NCBI RefSeq assembly: GCF_017355525.1
Contig: NZ_CP067395.1
Coordinates: forward strand, 1,736,001-1,800,000
Reading direction: 5' to 3'
Length of the DNA: 64,000 nt
From: Lysobacter enzymogenes
Lineage (GTDB): Bacteria; Pseudomonadota; Gammaproteobacteria; Xanthomonadales; Xanthomonadaceae
The translations under genes and the position numbers were made by a program. Shown here piece after piece: positions 17,577 through 24,838 of this stretch. The stretch's first letter is position 1. Each line of letters opens with the position of its first letter. The notes under the pieces were generated by a model. That model was not told the DNA's origin. It worked only from the letters and a program-made list of their open reading frames with translations, and did no database searches.

Positions 17577-19169
17577 ATGTCCGCCACCACCGCTAACGCC
17601 GGCCCCTCCGGCCCCGCCGCGCCCCCCGCGCAGCCGCAAGCCGCCTTCAAGCCGCCGAACATGGCGCTGACCACGCTGGGCCTGGCCCTGGCGTCGTTCA
17701 TGCAGGTGCTCGACACCACCATCGCCAACGTGTCGCTGCCGACCATCTCCGGCAACCTCGGCGGCAGCGCCAATCAGGCCACCTGGGTCATCACCTCGTT
17801 CGCCGTCAGCAACGCCATCGCGCTGCCGCTGACCGGTTTCTTCACGCGCAAGTTCGGCGAACGCAAGCTGTTCATGTGGGCCACGCTGCTGTTCGTGATC
17901 GCCTCGTTCCTGTGCGGCCTGGCCAACAGCATGGGCCTGCTGGTCGCCGCGCGCGCGCTGCAGGGCTTCGTCGCCGGGCCGATGTATCCGGTGACCCAGG
18001 CGCTGCTGATCTCGATCTATCCACCGCACAAACGCGGACAGGCCATCGCCCTGCTGGCGATGGTGACCGTGGTCGCGCCGATCGCCGGCCCGATCCTCGG
18101 CGGCTGGATCACCGACAACTACAGTTGGGAGTGGATCTTCTTCATCAACATCCCGATCGGCATCTTCGCCAGCGTCGTCGTCGGCAACCAGTTGCGCGGC
18201 CGCCCGGAGCGGCTGGACAACCCGAAGATGGACTACATGGGCCTGGCGATGCTGGTGATCGGCGTGGCCGCGCTGCAGATCATGCTCGACCTGGGCAACG
18301 ACGAGGACTGGTTCAACTCCACCACCATCGTCGTGCTGACCATCGTCGCGGTGATCGCGCTGGCGGTGTTCGTGATCTGGGAACTGACCGAGCGCGACCC
18401 GATCGTCAACCTGCGCCTGTTCCGCCACCGCAACTTCGCCAGCGGCACCGCCGCGATGGTGCTGGCCTATTCGGCGTTCTTCGCGATCGGCCTGCTGGTG
18501 CCGCTGTGGCTGCAACGGAATCTGGGCTACACCTCGATCTGGGCGGGCCTGGCGACCGCGCCGATCGGCATCCTGCCGGTGCTGCTGACGCCGTTCGTGG
18601 GCCTGTACGCGGCGCGCTTCGACCTGCGCTGGGTCGCCACCGGCGCGTTCATGGTCATGGCCGCGACCAGCTTCGTGCGTTCGGGCTTCAACCTCGACGT
18701 CGACTTCCACCACGTCGCGCTGGTGCAGTTGTGGCAAGGCCTCGGCGTGGCGTTGTTCTTCATGCCGGTGCTGACGATCCTGCTGTCGGATCTGGAACCG
18801 CACGAGATCGCCGCGGGCTCGGGTCTGGCGACGTTCGTGCGAACGCTCGGCGGCAGCTTCGCCGCCTCGCTGACCACCTGGGCCTGGAACCAGCGCAGCA
18901 CCATCCACCACGCCCAGCTGACCGAGCACATCGGCGCCTACGATCCGCAGATCCAGCAGACCGTCGACCAGCTCGGCCGCGGCGACCCGACCCGCGGCGC
19001 GCTGGCGCTGAACCAGATGATCTCGCAGCAGGCCGCGCAGATCGGCTTCAACGAGATGCTGTACCTGATCGGCATCCTGTTCGTGGTGGTGACCGCGTTC
19101 GTGTGGCTGGCCAAGCCGCCGTTCACGGCCAAGGTCGGCGGCGGCGCTGCGGCGGCCGGCGGGCACTGA
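17577..19169 (+). CDS. emrB: DHA2-type MFS multidrug exporter EmrB
   Basis: A 530-residue inner-membrane drug:H+ antiporter with 14 predicted helices. Family motifs include LASFMQVLDTTIANVSLPTI (motif D1), TWVITSFAVSNAIALPLTGF, FTRKFGERKLFMWATLLFVI (motif A), ARALQGFVAGPMYPVTQALL and VTVVAPIAGPILGGWITDNY (motif C). About 35 residues before the first helix are Ala/Pro-rich. It works with the EmrA and NodT-type proteins encoded upstream. An unusually long 340-bp gap with two hairpins separates it from emrA; it may have reduced read-through or its own promoter. A strong terminator follows. Confidence 0.95.
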   Translation: MSATTANAGPSGPAAPPAQPQAAFKPPNMALTTLGLALASFMQVLDTTIANVSLPTISGNLGGSANQATWVITSFAVSNAIALPLTGFFTRKFGERKLFMWATLLFVIASFLCGLANSMGLLVAARALQGFVAGPMYPVTQALLISIYPPHKRGQAIALLAMVTVVAPIAGPILGGWITDNYSWEWIFFINIPIGIFASVVVGNQLRGRPERLDNPKMDYMGLAMLVIGVAALQIMLDLGNDEDWFNSTTIVVLTIVAVIALAVFVIWELTERDPIVNLRLFRHRNFASGTAAMVLAYSAFFAIGLLVPLWLQRNLGYTSIWAGLATAPIGILPVLLTPFVGLYAARFDLRWVATGAFMVMAATSFVRSGFNLDVDFHHVALVQLWQGLGVALFFMPVLTILLSDLEPHEIAAGSGLATFVRTLGGSFAASLTTWAWNQRSTIHHAQLTEHIGAYDPQIQQTVDQLGRGDPTRGALALNQMISQQAAQIGFNEMLYLIGILFVVVTAFVWLAKPPFTAKVGGGAAAAGGH

Positions 19170-19192
19170 GCCGCGCGAAAAACCCAAAGCAT

Positions 19193-19227
19193 GCGAACGG
19201 GCCGGTCATCCGGCCCGTTCGCTTTTT
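19193..19227 (+). terminator. terminator of the emr operon
   Basis: A perfect 13-bp stem GCGAACGGGCCGG/CCGGCCCGTTCGC with a TCAT loop is followed directly by TTTTT, 23 bp after the emrB stop. Confidence 0.92.
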
Positions 19228-19448
19228 GCGGAGCCGCAACGCGCGCAGCCGCGCCGCCTGCGAATGGCCGTGGGCGTGATCCGTTTTCTCCGCGCATTGC
19301 GAGTCTTGAAACGGCGCCCCGAAGGATTGCCTTCGGTCACCAGCCGCGACCGCGAACCTGTCCCCACGGTGTCGCCCGGGTCTCGCGGCTTCGCCGGCGC
19401 CGCGCGCTCCACTTCCGGAGCGCGCGAACGCATCCAGGAGAGAGTTTC

Positions 19449-19664
19449 ATGAAGACCCGCTCGCGCAAGCTCGGACTGCCCGCACTCGCCGCCCTGGCCT
19501 TCGGTTTCGCGTTCTCGATGAGCGCGATGGCCGGCGTGTGCAACACCTGCTGGAACCGCTGCATCGCCCAGTACGAGGACTGCAAGCAGCAATACGGCGA
19601 CGGCTGGGCCTGCTCCTCGCAGTTCACCCAGTGCGGCAAGGGCTGTGGCTGCGAGATGCCCTGA
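19449..19664 (+). CDS. secreted eight-cysteine peptide 1
   Basis: A 71-residue precursor not matched to a family I know. AGGAGAGA precedes the ATG at 19449. Residues 1-28 are a Sec signal peptide (ALAFGFAFSMSAMA, cleavage after AMA). The mature part of about 43 residues has eight cysteines with inter-cysteine gaps of 2, 3, 6, 9, 6, 3 and 1 (VCNTCWNRC, YEDC, WACSSQFTQC, GKGCGCEMP). The same gaps recur in the products at 21768, 22011 and 22506, with only the fourth gap changing. Four disulfides or a metal site are both possible. It lies convergent to the HoxX-like gene. Confidence 0.82.
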   Translation: MKTRSRKLGLPALAALAFGFAFSMSAMAGVCNTCWNRCIAQYEDCKQQYGDGWACSSQFTQCGKGCGCEMP

Positions 19665-19682
19665 ACCGTCGCGGCAAGGCCC

Positions 19683-19711
19683 GCGGCAGGCCGGCGCTTC
19701 CGGCCTGCCGC
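19683..19711. terminator. hairpin between convergent peptide 1 and hoxX
   Basis: A 12-bp stem GCGGCAGGCCGG/CCGGCCTGCCGC with a 5-nt loop lies in the 73-bp gap between the two convergent stops. No T-run is seen on either strand, so termination is only plausible. Confidence 0.5.
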
Positions 19712-19737
19712 ATCCGCGCGCGCGCGGCGCGCAGCGA

Positions 19738-21483
19738 TCAGGCGCCGGCGCGCACCGCCAGCGTCGCGCCCGCGGCGCCCGCGCGTTCGCCGGCGAAGCT
19801 CTCGCCGGCCTCGCACGGCGCCGCCGCCTGCTTGCGCACGAAGCGCCGGCGCGCCTCGTGGTAGCTGCGGTCGGGGCCGAAGAAGTTGCGGTACATGTGC
19901 GCCAGTTCTTCGGCGCCGTAGCTTTCCAGCGGCTTGCGCCGCTCGTCGTCGGCGCGGCGCTTGCGCTTGGCCGCCAGCGCCTTGCGGCAGGCGCCGGGCT
20001 CGATCAAACGTTCGGCGCGCTGTTCGACGTGGGCGAGGAAATCGGCGCCGCCGGCGCCGAAGGCGGCATCGATCAGGCCGATGCGCTCGGCCGCGGGCGC
20101 ACCGATCGGACGCAGGCCCTGGGTCAGTTCCTGGGCGACGGCGTCGCCGACCCGGCGCGGCAGCAGATAGGTCCAGTACTCCGAGCCGTACAGGCCGCCC
20201 ATGCCCTGGTAGTGCGGGTTCAACACCACGCCGCGGCGCGCCCACACCTCGTCGGCGGCCAGCGCCAGGATCACCCCGCCGGCGCCGGCGTTGCCCTGCA
20301 TCGCCGCGACCACCCGGTGCGAATCGGTCAGCACGATCTCGCGCACCAGCGCGTTCATCGCCAGGATGTTGCGCCACGATTCCAGCGCCGGGTCGGCGGC
20401 CGCCTCGATGGTGTTGAGGTGGATGCCGTTGGACCACAGGTCGCCGCCGCCGAGCAGCACGATCGCCCGGGTCGGGCGCTGGCGCGCGTGCAGGAACGCG
20501 GTGCGCAGGCGGTCGCACTGCAGAGTCGACATCGCGCCGTTGTAGAAATCGAAATGCAGGTAGCCGACCGCGCCGGTTTCGCGGTAGCGGATCTGGCGGT
20601 AGCCGTGGTCGCGGCGGCCGGCCACCGAGGTCGCCGGCTTGAGCGCGCGCGCGGCCACGCCGCGCAGGCGCGCCTCGCCGAGCACCTGGGTCGCCGGCAG
20701 CTTGATCCCGTCCTTGTCGCGCAGATGGCTCAGCCACAGCGCGCCGTCGCCGCTGGCCACGCACACCGCGCCTTCGCGGCGGCCGAGCAGTTCGCCGGGA
20801 CGGCCGCGCAACGCCGGTTCGACGTGGGCGCCGAACACCTGGCAGCGCAGGCCGGCGATTTCGCCGCGCGCGCCCGGGGCGCTGTCGCCGCAGCGGATCC
20901 GCGCCAGCAGCGCGGCGTTGTCCATCTCCCAGTCCAGCGCGCGGTCGCCCGGGCGCATGCTCGGGCGCAGCCGCCCGCGCACCTCGGGGTCGGCGTAATC
21001 CAGCGGCTGCGGCGCGTAGCCGCCGGCTTCGAAACGCTCCACCGCCTGCAGCAGCGCGCGCACCGCCGCGTCGGTGACTTCGTGGCGGTACAGCTCGCTC
21101 TTGGATGCGCCGCGCACGGCGAAACCGGCGCTGGCCCAGATGTCGCCGGCGTCCATTTCCGCCGCCGCCTGCAGCACGGTGACGCCCCACTGGGTTTCGC
21201 CTTCCAGGATCGCCCAGTCCAGCGACGACGGGCCGCGGTCGCCGACGATGCCGGGATGCACGATCAGGCAGGTGTGGCGGCTCCAGATGTCTTCGGGAAT
21301 CGCCGACTTCAGCATCGGCGCGACGATCAGCTGCGGGCGCTCGCGCGCGACCGCGGCGCGCATGGTGTCGGCGTCGGAAGTCGCGTGCACCGCGACCTCG
21401 TGGCCCAGCTCGGTGAGTTCGGCCCAGGCGCGCTGGGCCAGTCCATTGAACGCAGTGCACAAGAACACGATGCGCAGCGACAT
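19738..21483 (-). CDS. hoxX: HoxX-like protein: formyltransferase + crotonase domains
   Basis: A 581-residue two-domain protein. Residues 1-280 resemble the formyl-transfer domain of methionyl-tRNA formyltransferase, with His76 in HPGIVGDRGPSSLDWAI and Asp111 in EMDAGDIWA. Residues 300-520 resemble enoyl-CoA hydratase (GGGDLWSNGIHLNTIE at 345-360; NAGAGGVILALAADEVWAR at 398-416; GSEYWTYLLPRRVG near 433-446). This order is that of HoxX. In hydrogen-oxidising bacteria, HoxX makes CO from formyl-THF through formyl-CoA for the [NiFe]-hydrogenase active site. No hydrogenase gene is in the window. The ATG at 21483 has AGGGGGAT before it; an alternative GTG lies at 21501. Confidence 0.88.
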   Translation of the reverse strand: MSLRIVFLCTAFNGLAQRAWAELTELGHEVAVHATSDADTMRAAVARERPQLIVAPMLKSAIPEDIWSRHTCLIVHPGIVGDRGPSSLDWAILEGETQWGVTVLQAAAEMDAGDIWASAGFAVRGASKSELYRHEVTDAAVRALLQAVERFEAGGYAPQPLDYADPEVRGRLRPSMRPGDRALDWEMDNAALLARIRCGDSAPGARGEIAGLRCQVFGAHVEPALRGRPGELLGRREGAVCVASGDGALWLSHLRDKDGIKLPATQVLGEARLRGVAARALKPATSVAGRRDHGYRQIRYRETGAVGYLHFDFYNGAMSTLQCDRLRTAFLHARQRPTRAIVLLGGGDLWSNGIHLNTIEAAADPALESWRNILAMNALVREIVLTDSHRVVAAMQGNAGAGGVILALAADEVWARRGVVLNPHYQGMGGLYGSEYWTYLLPRRVGDAVAQELTQGLRPIGAPAAERIGLIDAAFGAGGADFLAHVEQRAERLIEPGACRKALAAKRKRRADDERRKPLESYGAEELAHMYRNFFGPDRSYHEARRRFVRKQAAAPCEAGESFAGERAGAAGATLAVRAGA

Positions 21484-21767
21484 GGTCCATCCCCCTGTCA
21501 CCTACGAAGTCTCGAATGTGTGCCAATGAGTGTTCATAAACATGAGTCGAGATCACAGATTTCTGCTGCATCGCAGCGAGCTTGCGGATTTACGACGCGC
21601 ATCGCCGTTCCACAAGAAAGTCGTCTCGAAAGTGCCGTGCGGTGGCCGACCGTCTCGCCATAGCGCGTTCGCCCCAGCGGTCGCGCCGCATCCGCGACCG
21701 CTGCGGCCGCGCGCCGGCCGCCACCCGCTCATGAGGAGCGTTCCTCCCATCGCACAAGGAGAGATCG

Positions 21768-21977
21768 ATGTTCGCCAGCACCCGCCGTACCCTCGCCGTC
21801 GCCGCGTTCTGTTGCGGCGTGGCGTTTTCGCTGAGCGCGTTCGCCAGCGCCTGCGAAGACTGCTACCGCAATTGTCTGGTCGAGCGTTCGCAATGCCGCG
21901 CTGCCGGCACGCCGCAGGAACAGTGCCTCGCGGCTTATGTCGAATGCCGCAAGCGTTGCAACTGCCAGTTGCCCTGA
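21768..21977 (+). CDS. secreted eight-cysteine peptide 2
   Basis: A 69-residue precursor. AAGGAGAG precedes the ATG at 21768. The leader RTLAVAAFCCGVAFSLSAFA ends in a Sec-type AFA cleavage site. The mature peptide has eight cysteines with gaps 2, 3, 6, 9, 6, 3, 1 (ACEDCYRNC, VERSQC, QEQCLAAYVECRKRCNC), identical spacing to the 19449 product although residues between differ. It starts 284 bp upstream of, and divergent from, the HoxX-like gene; nothing else is seen in that 284 bp. It heads a rightward run of two more peptides and a glutaredoxin. Confidence 0.82.
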   Translation: MFASTRRTLAVAAFCCGVAFSLSAFASACEDCYRNCLVERSQCRAAGTPQEQCLAAYVECRKRCNCQLP

Positions 21978-22010
21978 TCGCCACCGCCACCGTCACCCAA
22001 GGACACGACC

Positions 22011-22211
22011 ATGTTCAAGCACAACCGTTTCGCCGTCGCCGCCGCGTTCTGTTTCGGTATGGCCTTCTCGCTCGGCGCGTTCGCCCAGCAGGATTGCCAG
22101 GCTTGCACGGACGCCTGCTACGAGCAGTACGAGCAATGCAACTTCGACGGTTATCCGTTCTGCAAGGCCAACCTGCGCGCCTGCACCCGGGCCTGCGGCT
22201 GTCAGGTCTGA
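22011..22211 (+). CDS. secreted eight-cysteine peptide 3
   Basis: A 66-residue precursor, 33 bp after peptide 2 and probably co-transcribed. The leader RFAVAAAFCFGMAFSLGAFA is nearly the same as that of peptides 2 and 4. The mature peptide has eight cysteines with gaps 2, 3, 6, 7, 6, 3, 1 (DCQACTDAC, YEQYEQC, GYPFCKANLRACTRACGC). AAGGA precedes the ATG at 22011. It is acidic toward the N-terminus (QQDCQACTDACYEQYEQ) and lacks any feature of a known bacteriocin beyond size and cysteines. Confidence 0.82.
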   Translation: MFKHNRFAVAAAFCFGMAFSLGAFAQQDCQACTDACYEQYEQCNFDGYPFCKANLRACTRACGCQV

Positions 22212-22231
22212 AGCCGCCGTCGTTGAGCGCT

Positions 22232-22265
22232 CGGCCCGGGCGGACGCGCGCGTCCGCCCGGGCCG
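22232..22265. other. 34-bp perfect palindrome after peptide 3
   Basis: The sequence from CGGCCCGGGCGGACG to its complement CGTCCGCCCGGGCCG is a perfect palindrome (15-bp stem, 4-nt loop) starting 21 bp after the peptide 3 stop. It may end the peptide 2-3 transcript or act as an mRNA-stabilising hairpin; no T-run follows. The rest of 22266-22505 shows only a TATAAC box at 22462-22467. Confidence 0.55.
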
Positions 22266-22505
22266 TACGCGGCGGCGCGCGCCGTCGCCGCGCGTTCGCG
22301 CAAACCCGTGCCGCAGCGCAGCGCAAAGCGCGCACGCGCCGCCGCGGCGCAGCGCGCGCGCAGCGGCGCGCACTGTCGGAAACGACAGGATTCGCCGGCG
22401 TTCCGCAACCGGCATCACATCTGCCGTGCCGACGGGACATGGAACGCGCGCGGCGCGGTGCTATAACGCCCAGGCGCCCACAGACGGGCACAGGGAGGAA
22501 CAGTG

Positions 22506-22739
22506 ATGTTGACCGCCGCTTTCCGCCGCGCACGCGCGGCCCGTCGCCTCGCCGGCCTGGCCTTCTGCTTCGGCCTGGCGTTCTCGCTCAGCGCGTTCGC
22601 CGGGCTCACCCCGGAACAGTGCGCGTTGTGCTGGCAGGACTGCATCGCCCGTTACGACCAGTGCCGCGCCGAAGGCGGCGGCAGCGACTGCTTCCGCGAA
22701 CGCCAGCGCTGCGTCAACGCCTGCGGCTGCCGCGGCTGA
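22506..22739 (+). CDS. secreted eight-cysteine peptide 4
   Basis: A 77-residue precursor. GGAGG lies 7 bases before the ATG at 22506; a GTG three bases earlier is too close to it. The leader is longer and Arg-rich at its start (RRARAARRLAGLAFCFGLAF) and ends SLSAFA. The mature peptide has eight cysteines with gaps 2, 3, 6, 8, 6, 3, 1 (QCALCWQDC, ARYDQC, SDCFRERQRCVNACGC). A possible -10 box TATAAC (22462-22467) suggests a separate promoter. The membrane-anchored glutaredoxin gene follows after 85 bp on the same strand. Confidence 0.82.
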   Translation: MLTAAFRRARAARRLAGLAFCFGLAFSLSAFAGLTPEQCALCWQDCIARYDQCRAEGGGSDCFRERQRCVNACGCRG

Positions 22740-22824
22740 GCGCCGCGCCGCGGCCGCTTCGATCCCTCGCCCACGCCGCCAGCGGCGCGGGCTCCATTTC
22801 GCCACGATCCACCGAGGACAAGGA

Positions 22825-23229
22825 ATGAATTTCAAGTCGATCCTGACCACCATCGCCGTCGTCGCCCTGGCCCTGGCCCTCGGCGTCGGCGCCGGTTATC
22901 TGGTGCGCAACACCGGCCTGCTCGGCGGCGGCAAGGGCGTCGAGCTCGAGCAGGGCGACTACTCCGCCGTCTACGCCAAGGCCGGCGGCGACATCGTGCT
23001 GTACTCGCTGTCGACCTGCCCGTTCTGCCACAAGGCCAAGGAACTGCTGGACAAGCGCAACGTGCGCTACGTCGAGCGGGTCATCGACAAGGACGAAGTC
23101 GCGCGCAAGGAAGCCGACGGGCTCAAGATCAAGAGCGTGCCGGTGATCTACATCGGCGACCAGAGCATGCGCGGCTTCGACGAGGCCAAGCTGGTCGAGC
23201 TGCTGGACAAGCACGGCAAGAAGGCCTGA
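22825..23229 (+). CDS. membrane-anchored glutaredoxin-like protein
   Basis: A 134-residue protein with one N-terminal membrane helix (about residues 6-26, LTTIAVVALALALGVGAGYL), a linker, and a glutaredoxin fold from about 55. The active site is CPFC (Cys65, Cys68) in YSLSTCPFCHKAKELL. The cis-proline is in SVPVIYIGD (Pro106), followed by the usual GF turn (RGFDEAKLVELLD). AAGGA precedes the ATG at 22825. Topology is not certain: with few N-terminal charges it could face the periplasm or the cytoplasm. Its place after four cysteine-rich exported peptides suggests, but does not prove, a role in their disulfide state. Confidence 0.88.
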   Translation: MNFKSILTTIAVVALALALGVGAGYLVRNTGLLGGGKGVELEQGDYSAVYAKAGGDIVLYSLSTCPFCHKAKELLDKRNVRYVERVIDKDEVARKEADGLKIKSVPVIYIGDQSMRGFDEAKLVELLDKHGKKA

Positions 23230-23317
23230 TCCGAAGTCGCGGCGGCGCCGCGCCGGAAAGCGCGGGCCGCAGGAGCGCGCGGACGCCGCATCGCGGCGCC
23301 CGCGCGCGCGGCGGGCT

Positions 23318-24838
23318 TCAGGTTTCCGCCTGCCAGGCCCACTTGGTCTCGCCGCCGGCCGCGTTCTTGCACTGCACGCGGATGAAGCTTTCGTCCGCCT
23401 CCACATAACGGATTTCGGCATCGCCGGCCGCGGCGTTCGCGGGCGTCACGCTGAAGCGCGCGGGCCGGCCGAGCAGGCCGTGGGCGATCGCGAACGAATT
23501 GCCGCCGCCGAAAGCGGCCACCCCGCCGCCGCGGGTCTGCTGGTTGTTGGTGTTGAGCACCATGACCTTGTTGGCGTCCTGCGGCTGGCAGTTCACCGGC
23601 GTGGCGCTGACTCCGAGCGTGCCGCCGCTGACGTGGATCCGCGAGATCTGGCCGACCGCGGCGTTGCCCAGCTCCAGGAAGCGCTGACCGCCGTCGTAGT
23701 TCGGCGCGACGATGTCCAGCCCGTGCACCGACGAACCCGGCAGGGTCCGCACCACCGGCACGTTGCCGGCGATCTGGAACTCGCAGTTGGCCAGATTGAT
23801 GCGCTTGGCCCGGCCGCGGAAGGTCAGCCCGGCGTTGGTGCCGGAGATGTAGCAATTGGCGAAGTACAGATGTTCGGCGTCGTACAGCTCGATCGCGTCG
23901 GCATCGATGCCGGCCTGATTGAAGTAGCTGTTGGAGCAGAACACGAAACGGCAGGCCCCGCCCTGCCCGTCGATGCGCAACGCCGCCTTGACCGAAGCTT
24001 CGAACACAGTGTTGTCGATCTGATGGATGCCCGACAGAGCCGCGTTGGACACCAGGCGGAAGCAGTTTTCGCTGAGCTTGGCCGGCGACATCATGCAGTC
24101 GGACAGGATCACCGAACCGGCGTTCTCCAGATAGAAGCCGTACTTGCCCTGACCCGAGGTCATCTGGCACTGGAAGAACTGCAGCGCGTAGCCGGCCTTG
24201 TCCGTGGCTGCGACGCCCGCGCCGTTGACGTGGGCGTTGACGCAGGCGAACCAGCGGATGTTCTCGAAGTAGGAATAGAACACCACGCCGAACACGTGGA
24301 TGCTGTTCTGGCAGCCGTCGAACACGATGTTGCGCAGGTAGACGTTGCCGATGCCCGGGTTGCGGCCCTGCGCGTCGACCGGCTTGACCCCGTACAGCAA
24401 CACGCCATCCTGCTGTTCGCGTCCGGCGCCGAGCGCGACGGCATCGCCGAGGATGCCGAAGTTCTCCAGCGTGCACTGGGCCTTGATCGTCAGCGCCGGC
24501 GCGTTGGCGCGGATCAGCAGGCGGCTGCCCTGGGTGCCGGCATCGGTGCCGCGGATCTTGATGCCTTCGCTGCCGTCGACGGCGTCGATGGTCAGGCCGC
24601 CGAACAGCGCGATGTCGCCGCTGGGCAGCACCAGTTCCAGCTCGCGGCGGGTGCAATAGTCGATGGCCTGGGCCATCGCCGCGGCGTTGTCGGTGCTGCC
24701 GTCGGCGACGACGCCGAAATCGGTGGCGTTGACGGACCCCTTGTAGACCGGTTCGGCCGGCGGATTGGCCAGCGCGGCAGGCGCGGCGGCGGCGGCCAGC
24801 CCTACCGGGAGGGCGCCCAGGAAATGACGACGTTGCAT
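23318..24838 (-). CDS. Tat-exported right-handed beta-helix protein
   Basis: A 506-residue protein of the pectate-lyase-3/tailspike-like type. Residues 1-24 carry a twin-arginine leader (MQRRHFLGALPVGLAAAAAP), so it is probably exported folded. The mature part begins NATDFGVVADGSTDNAAAMA, the segment that opens many parallel beta-helix proteins. About twelve short coils with repeated Asn/Phe/Gly follow (YLRNIVFDGCQNSIHVFGVV, AEHLYFANCYISGTNAGL). The last 80 residues (QQTRGGGVAAFGGGNSFAIA and onwards) form a separate C-terminal domain. Catalytic residues cannot be assigned. The start at 24838 places the Tat motif correctly. It is convergent with the glutaredoxin gene. Confidence 0.8.
   Translation of the reverse strand: MQRRHFLGALPVGLAAAAAPAALANPPAEPVYKGSVNATDFGVVADGSTDNAAAMAQAIDYCTRRELELVLPSGDIALFGGLTIDAVDGSEGIKIRGTDAGTQGSRLLIRANAPALTIKAQCTLENFGILGDAVALGAGREQQDGVLLYGVKPVDAQGRNPGIGNVYLRNIVFDGCQNSIHVFGVVFYSYFENIRWFACVNAHVNGAGVAATDKAGYALQFFQCQMTSGQGKYGFYLENAGSVILSDCMMSPAKLSENCFRLVSNAALSGIHQIDNTVFEASVKAALRIDGQGGACRFVFCSNSYFNQAGIDADAIELYDAEHLYFANCYISGTNAGLTFRGRAKRINLANCEFQIAGNVPVVRTLPGSSVHGLDIVAPNYDGGQRFLELGNAAVGQISRIHVSGGTLGVSATPVNCQPQDANKVMVLNTNNQQTRGGGVAAFGGGNSFAIAHGLLGRPARFSVTPANAAAGDAEIRYVEADESFIRVQCKNAAGGETKWAWQAET

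Follow-up and report, generated by a model that had tools for sequence, protein, structure and literature searches.

The 64,000-nucleotide stretch of Lysobacter enzymogenes analysed here (contig NZ_CP067395.1, positions 1,736,001 to 1,800,000, hereafter the window) carries four small genes, W1 to W4, each for a putatively exported peptide with eight cysteines in one fixed spacing, and, downstream of W4, the gene of a glutaredoxin (Grx) with an N-terminal hydrophobic anchor. Judged from their sequences, W1–W4 look like the eight-cysteine branch of a superfamily that has so far been seen only in this bacterial order and that has about 30 genes in this genome; the whole is apparently an undescribed, large family of exported, cysteine-stapled mini-proteins of Lysobacter and its relatives. 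Anchored glutaredoxins of the main type mostly accompany such peptides, not the reverse.

All four precursor genes lie on the plus strand, start with ATG and are preceded by a sequence resembling a ribosome-binding site: W1 at 19449–19664 (71 residues; leader at about 19449–19532, mature part at about 19533–19661), W2 at 21768–21977 (69 residues; mature part at about 21846–21974), W3 at 22011–22211 (66 residues; mature part at about 22086–22208), starting 33 bases after the W2 stop, and W4 at 22506–22739 (77 residues; mature part at about 22602–22736). By eye and by hydropathy the leaders are of the Sec type, and the gaps between the eight cysteines of the mature parts are exactly 2-3-6-n-6-3-1, with n = 9, 9, 7, and 8 from W1 to W4. 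The strict pattern occurs four times in the six frames of the window and in none of 300 shuffled windows (200 codon-shuffled and 100 base-shuffled), so that the four leader-bearing precursors described by the sequence-only reading of this stretch are borne out exactly. In 33 pairs of reciprocal-best orthologues with 60% identity or more, drawn from 11 genome pairs of the genus, the ratio of nonsynonymous to synonymous substitution rates (dN/dS) is 0.24 in the mature part (0.27 without the C–C columns) and 0.29 in the leader, against 0.045–0.12 in five neighbouring genes; W1–W4 are therefore coding sequences under selection, with a faster evolution than the genes beside them. Residues other than cysteine are conserved among orthologues.

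The peptides have no counterpart in the family libraries searched. Pfam and NCBIfam gave no match near the cutoff for any of the four window peptides and, for 26 family members, only matches at E 0.03 or worse, each family being hit by a single member, in keeping with the earlier remark that no described family with this pattern was known to its author; Rfam had no match in 19100–23400. We found no paper on such a family among those listed on cysteine-rich secreted peptides of Lysobacter and Stenotrophomonas, on the Lysobacter secretome, on the proteomics of outer membrane vesicles of L. enzymogenes, and on Lysobacter, nematodes, and disulfide peptides, and the accessible part of a proteomics paper on L. 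capsici (PMC12219114) contains nothing on these peptides.

A profile of the four window sequences has 27 matches at E ≤ 10 in the 5.95 Mb genome, the last few of them probably due to chance, and 22 at E ≤ 0.01, while a profile of 20 sequences, built from this genome's own members, has at least 30 at E ≤ 0.001 with 150 of the 227 candidates scored. In 400 kb of other DNA from the same genome, used as a control, there was no profile match at E ≤ 0.05. Within the genus all 20 genomes searched, this one included, have matches, from 1 to 36 each. At E ≤ 1e-4 the family level gives at least 53 of 297 genomes and at least 12 of 54 genera (20 candidates scored per genome), and at the level of the order at least 41 of 299 sampled genomes and at least 22 of 85 genera match (19 candidates per genome). 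A class-wide sample yields at least 4 of 369 genomes (16 candidates per genome), three of them from the same family and the fourth (G329) a frame without the framework, probably a chance match. The database matches that carry names are from Lysobacter, Stenotrophomonas, Pseudomarimonas, and Chiayiivirga.

Some loci extend the picture at its edges. L035 (G000:C1:1359141–1359599, minus strand) combines the same kind of leader with another short mature type, RPCCSxC...C..IC, and outside the genus this type adjoins an anchored glutaredoxin (L246, L250, L252, and L256). L148 and L154, from genomes G071 and G112, are putative lipoproteins with longer segments of the CxxxC-x6-C type, perhaps distant relatives.

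Between paralogues, the mature part outside the cysteines has diverged far more than the leader. Among 28 precursors of this genome (378 pairs) the median identity is 47% in the leader and 21% in the mature part outside the C–C columns. In 71 pairs of tandem paralogues, which were kept if the leader proportion of synonymous differences (pS) was below 0.45 and which are not independent of one another, the proportion of nonsynonymous differences (pN) is 0.25 in the leader and 0.53 in the mature part. Random pairing of the same mature codons gives a pS of 0.555 and a pN of 0.729; in either class the mature part has come about three quarters of the way to saturation and is, apart from the cysteines, close to unconstrained. 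Diversifying selection was considered and rejected: the apparent dN/dS of 1.48 between tandem paralogues drops to about 0.9 once scaled by the random-pairing values. The sequence-only reading had taken the resemblance as one of framework and not of recent duplication; this is half correct, since the four go back to old duplications and have certain leader positions in common that never vary.

The arrangement of the cysteines points to a paired structure. We collected 172 distinct precursors from the fetched loci (317 profile matches among 10,680 fragments of open reading frames; at least two are truncated by the choice of start), and beyond residue 24, counted without reference to any pattern, 115 of them have six cysteines and 51 have eight, 166 in all. 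The helix gaps, which were not forced, are 6/6 in 154 of these 166. A core of C-x6/7-C-n-C-x6/7/8-C fits 163 of the 172 and fails in 9; around it, counting within 9 residues before and 14 residues after, the number of cysteines before the core equals the number after it in 159 of 163 (111 with 1+1, 48 with 2+2). Clustering below 60% identity leaves a non-redundant set in which 72 of 73 are balanced (54 with 1+1, 18 with 2+2, and one exception). The balanced numbers therefore indicate that the two outermost cysteines come and go together in evolution, which is what a C1–C8 bond would predict. The offsets are coupled as well, one of 4 before the core going with one of 4 or 5 after it, and one of 3 mainly with one of 6. 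For W2, adding up the positions gives 44 for each of C4+C5, C3+C6, and C2+C7 and 43 for C1+C8, which, on sequence positions, is the register of an antiparallel hairpin.

Structure prediction gives two helices. AlphaFold2 places two helices in the W1 precursor (30–49 and 53–66; mean predicted local distance difference test score, pLDDT, 65.7, with blocks of pLDDT 72–82 in the helices) and models the mature part of W2 alone as a two-helix hairpin (helices 2–19 and 24–38; mean pLDDT 92.2). Together, the predicted helical hairpin and the balanced cysteines suggest a ladder of nested disulfides. A Foldseek search with the precursor model returned no match at E ≤ 0.001, the structural matches being weak. 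In the 73 non-redundant mature parts a tyrosine stands three residues before the second and the fourth core cysteine in 40 and 42 cases, respectively, the loop is 5 to 14 residues long, and the net charge averages −1.8, with extremes of −6 and +3.

The second element of the system is the glutaredoxin encoded at 22825–23229 (plus strand, 134 residues, active-site motif CPFC), whose reading frame starts 85 bases after W4. It matches Pfam PF00462 with 62.6 bits against a cutoff of 22.9 (E 3.9e-17), and C65, C68, V105, and P106, that is, the CxxC and the (cis-)proline motif, are invariant in 12 aligned relatives. A lysine precedes the N-terminal hydrophobic anchor. Among 60 anchored glutaredoxins (61 loci surveyed, L257 left out) all have the hydrophobic stretch, 59 have CxxC, mostly as CPYC or CPFC, and 52 have a basic, non-acidic N-terminus; by the positive-inside rule, the glutaredoxin domain would thus face the periplasm. 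Both the anchors (in the window, 22825–22910) and the peptide leaders often have a glycine-rich GxGxG stretch, and that the two touch each other would be a guess.

Across genomes, anchored glutaredoxins mostly come with peptides. Within the genus, glutaredoxins of the W type (E ≤ 1e-20) are found in exactly those 15 of the 20 genomes that carry an eight-cysteine cluster and are missing from the remaining five; in each of the 15, a peptide lies no more than 500 bases away. Of the 46 anchored glutaredoxins examined outside the genus, 39 have a peptide, detected by profile, at a distance of up to 1 kb, on the same strand in every case reported, compared with 0 of 24 glutaredoxins without the anchor (Fisher p 7e-13, uncorrected for relatedness). 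The clustering with a thiol-active protein, which the sequence-only reading pointed out, is supported by this contrast as a meaningful link.

These numbers come from two sets and a control. The first comprises all 28 out-of-genus matches of one glutaredoxin search, picked by similarity of the glutaredoxin and not by the peptides; two have no anchor (L261 and L262), and 23 of the 26 anchored ones have a peptide (one of them weak: L260, E 0.008), the exceptions being L257 (an internal stop in the glutaredoxin), L270 (peptides about 5 kb away), and L271 (contig end). The second consists of 20 other out-of-genus matches that start at position 9 or earlier, among the matches listed in an order-wide search with a glutaredoxin profile; two starting at 16 and 19 were left out. 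Here 16 of 20 have a peptide; there is none at L340, L343, and L344, while L336 has a cysteine-rich open reading frame with a leader, missed by the profile. The control holds 20 glutaredoxins among the matches listed whose match misses the anchor, plus L303, L304, L261, and L262. Under a looser rule (a leader and at least five cysteines) the counts are 22 of 26 and 16 of 20 against 2 of 24. L274 and L275 were picked for their peptides and hence are uncounted.

On balance, and without strong conviction for the chain as a whole, we favour a mechanism in which exported, disulfide-stapled mini-proteins are matured by a partner glutaredoxin and act outside the cytoplasm. The precursors would be exported by Sec, and their mature parts of about 40–45 residues would fold into an antiparallel two-helix hairpin with nested disulfides C1–C8, C2–C7, C3–C6, and C4–C5. 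According to PMC12453122, DsbB-independent formation of disulfides with glutathione in E. coli involves a glutaredoxin located in the periplasm; from this precedent and that of PedC in pediocin production (see below), we propose by analogy that the glutaredoxin, anchored in the inner membrane and facing the periplasm, may form or shuffle the disulfides of the peptides, probably using periplasmic glutathione. The resulting stable hairpins, with their variable surface, would work in the envelope or the milieu and most likely bind molecules of other organisms, in competition or predation. Our confidence in the family, the hairpin, and the linkage to the glutaredoxin is much higher than in the mechanism as a whole, and that in the target is much lower; what the analysis shows is that the genes are coding, the family with its scale and distribution, the matched cysteines, and the linkage to the anchored glutaredoxin, while fold, leader, and topology are predictions, and redox chemistry, release, and target are what we infer. 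The data point to a stable exported scaffold of variable surface, present in multiple copies with turnover, for competition, predation, or inhibition; they speak less for cationic lysis, given the charge, or for metal storage, given the matched cysteines.

A number of observations weigh against this mechanism. The glutaredoxin could reduce the peptides rather than oxidise them. Seven of the 46 anchored glutaredoxins have no peptide, and a second anchored subtype of Lysobacter, with CGYC, has none nearby in 3 of 3 loci (L346:2750–3110, L347:2687–3044, and L348:2889–3246). Seen from the peptides the association is looser still: a glutaredoxin lies within 1.5 kb in only 6 of 30 fetched out-of-genus peptide loci, the present genome has about 30 peptides but one glutaredoxin of the W type, and among the Stenotrophomonas-like genomes that have peptides, several (G112, G163, and G215) gave no glutaredoxin match. 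The 15 genomes of the genus may be one clade, so the genus pattern alone is weak, and the cysteine counts depend on sequences gathered by means of family profiles and are not free of selection. Positive selection is not claimed, the dN/dS of the tandem paralogues being about 0.9 after allowing for saturation. Finally, an immunity gene, an exporter, or a target has not been identified, and expression, proteomic, or functional evidence for the peptides was not found.

Of the other explanations, the one that fares best, though we consider it unlikely, is that the peptides are secreted inhibitors, for example of proteases, which shield Lysobacter from hydrolases, be they its own or those of its rivals. 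A fixed scaffold with a variable surface is well suited to inhibitors, neprosin-type and M20 peptidase genes lie near two paralogues, Lysobacter is a source of lytic enzymes according to PMC12219114, and the title of an entry in the reference list of PMC7191063 describes a plant trypsin inhibitor with a helical hairpin structure. Against this, the hairpins have no conserved reactive loop, given a loop of such variable length, and peptidase neighbours are not general among the scanned loci.

Another proposal is that the peptides bind or store metal in the periplasm, with the anchored glutaredoxin keeping their thiols reduced. Helical metal stores that are exported and rich in thiols do exist (Csp1), the peptides have CxxC and CxC motifs with cysteines at regular spacing along the helices, and a glutaredoxin is able to act as a reductase. 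Even, matched cysteine numbers (72 of 73 balanced; 166 of 172 with six or eight) nevertheless fit disulfides and not metal sites, the coupling of the offsets follows hairpin geometry, and among 20 scanned neighbours of paralogues there is no obvious metal gene except a FecR-type regulator at one locus. Metal binding, which had been among the functions first suggested from the sequence, is disfavoured by the matched numbers, and we regard this explanation as improbable.

We think it quite improbable, too, that the peptides serve redox or stress functions in the periplasm, as a thiol buffer or sensor and as substrates of the anchored glutaredoxin. The linkage to that enzyme is in keeping with such a role, as are two paralogue loci: a six-cysteine member between catalase and peroxidase-family genes, about 1 kb before the window (L021:4697–5059, minus strand; G000:C1:1734697–1735059), and a paralogue that lies upstream of a sigma-factor/FecR pair and has a pyridine-nucleotide-disulphide oxidoreductase gene close by (L028:1788–2016, minus strand, with L028:2626–3543). 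A buffer, however, needs no set of about 30 divergent paralogues, nor does it account for conserved non-cysteine residues among orthologues, and most of the 20 scanned neighbours are unrelated to redox stress. Least probable are classical cationic membrane-active antimicrobial peptides: although the products are small, leader-bearing, cysteine-rich, and multicopy, with a predicted helical hairpin like that of plant α-hairpinins (a weak structure match), their mean net charge is negative, and so, of the antimicrobial, toxin-like, or inhibitory roles suggested earlier, the classical cationic form is disfavoured and the others stay candidates.

The genes around the cluster are conserved in their order. 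In five of five named Lysobacter loci (L. enzymogenes ATCC 29487, Lysobacter sp. yr284, sp. Root690, sp. ISL-50, and L. antibioticus 13-6) the succession MarR–OprM–EmrA–EmrB–HoxX–[peptides]–Grx–RadA is kept, and in three of the five a W1-like peptide separates EmrB from HoxX; the 15 clusters of the genus have one to five peptides each. The HoxX-like protein (formyl-transferase and enoyl-CoA-hydratase domains by Pfam), encoded in the window at 19738–21483 on the minus strand, is a conserved neighbour, and the sequence-only reading had linked it to the peptides. It is present in 20 of 20 genomes of the genus; in the five without the cluster (G011–G015) HoxX follows EmrB, with no peptide or cluster-type glutaredoxin within about 1.5 kb. 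On these grounds it was rejected as a functional partner: we judge HoxX to be a bystander and not part of the system.

No common partner emerged from the 20 scanned neighbours of paralogues in this genome. They include a catalase, a peroxidase, a flavoprotein of the disulphide-oxidoreductase type, M20 and neprosin peptidases, and YcaO, and furthermore a sigma factor and FecR, a response regulator, MurB, DHO dehydrogenase, Clp, and others. The YcaO gene (L188:7951–9195, minus strand) lies near one paralogue, but none is present within 1.5 kb on either side of that paralogue's closest matches in three other genomes; modification as ribosomally synthesized and post-translationally modified peptides was rejected. 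A shared hairpin in the 5′ leader as a regulatory element was likewise dismissed, stems of at least five pairs occurring in 43 of 81 non-redundant leaders and 23 of 52 intergenic controls (p 0.38), although a smaller earlier control with 17 genes had pointed to a difference. A GCCC-N5/6-GGGC stem (or GCCAG-N5-CTGGC, CGCTC-N5-GAGCG) before the ribosome-binding site is found in 10 of 28 genes of this genome and 3 of 141 controls, the motif having been chosen post hoc and hairpins in general not being enriched; it is seen in the window at 22476–22489 and also in family genes of other genera. The best common upstream 8-mer, present in 17 of 29 regions against shuffle maxima of 15, is plain CG-rich sequence and was discarded, and a scan of the same 29 upstream regions of this genome reported no Clp-like site. 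Between W3 and W4 (22232–22265) there is a long inverted repeat without a T run, perhaps the end of a transcript after W3.

Large families of ribosomally made, disulfide-stapled helical mini-proteins are known mainly from eukaryotes, as defence peptides and venoms. Here such a family extends across a bacterial order, with a strong expansion in Lysobacter, a genus investigated as a source of antimicrobials. The recurrent pairing with an anchored glutaredoxin offers a direct genetic test of disulfide formation by glutaredoxin and glutathione in a natural periplasm, and the glutaredoxin gene is a genomic handle for peptides that the family libraries searched miss. We put forward only tentatively, and as a rather doubtful extension, that the Lysobacterales might have a counterpart of venom-type families: fast-diverging stapled mini-proteins with a conserved Sec-type leader (up to 36 matches per genome), diversifying after tandem duplication under a fixed framework, matured by a natural anchored periplasmic glutaredoxin with exported glutathione, and used against other organisms.

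Several known systems resemble parts of this one. CHCH or twin CX9C proteins such as COA6 and COX17 are helical hairpins with nested disulfides. COA6 is the top PDB match, at a non-significant E of 0.49, and Pfam COX6B matches one of 26 members at E 0.073; the helix gaps of those proteins are 9, whereas here they are 6 in the four window peptides and 6/6 in the great majority of members. As regards the enzyme, the glutaredoxin of Eser et al. (2009) reportedly reached the E. coli periplasm by engineered export, while here the anchor seems to be a natural one and the gene occurs in linkage with those of peptides; the literature on periplasmic glutaredoxin and on Lysobacter glutaredoxin yielded no precedent for a natural periplasmic glutaredoxin as a partner. 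Plant α-hairpinins are disulfide-stabilised helical hairpins made from plant precursors and, according to PMC11591084, have four cysteines, in contrast to eight in the window peptides and six or eight in nearly all members. There is no significant sequence similarity to them, and on the present side the helical hairpin is predicted (pLDDT 92), the structure match is weak, and the disulfides are proposed from the matching of cysteines.

A partial parallel is provided by bacteriocin operons with a thiol-disulfide oxidoreductase, for which PMC4919988 gives pediocin PA-1 with PedC, sublancin with BdbA, and BlpGst; there, co-production of the exported CxxC protein PedC raises the potency of pediocin, and PedC probably sets its disulfides. 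In both cases the gene of a small exported cysteine peptide lies near that of an exported CxxC protein of the thioredoxin fold, as in 39 of the 46 anchored glutaredoxin loci, where export is judged from leader and anchor. Unlike in those operons, no immunity gene or exporter was recognised here among the conserved neighbours MarR–OprM–EmrAB, HoxX, and RadA, although an immunity gene may be present in a form that defies recognition. The present system further differs in its Sec-type leaders, in having a glutaredoxin and not a thioredoxin-like protein as partner, in belonging to another bacterial order, in the predicted helical hairpin with its six or eight cysteines, and in having many unlinked paralogues.

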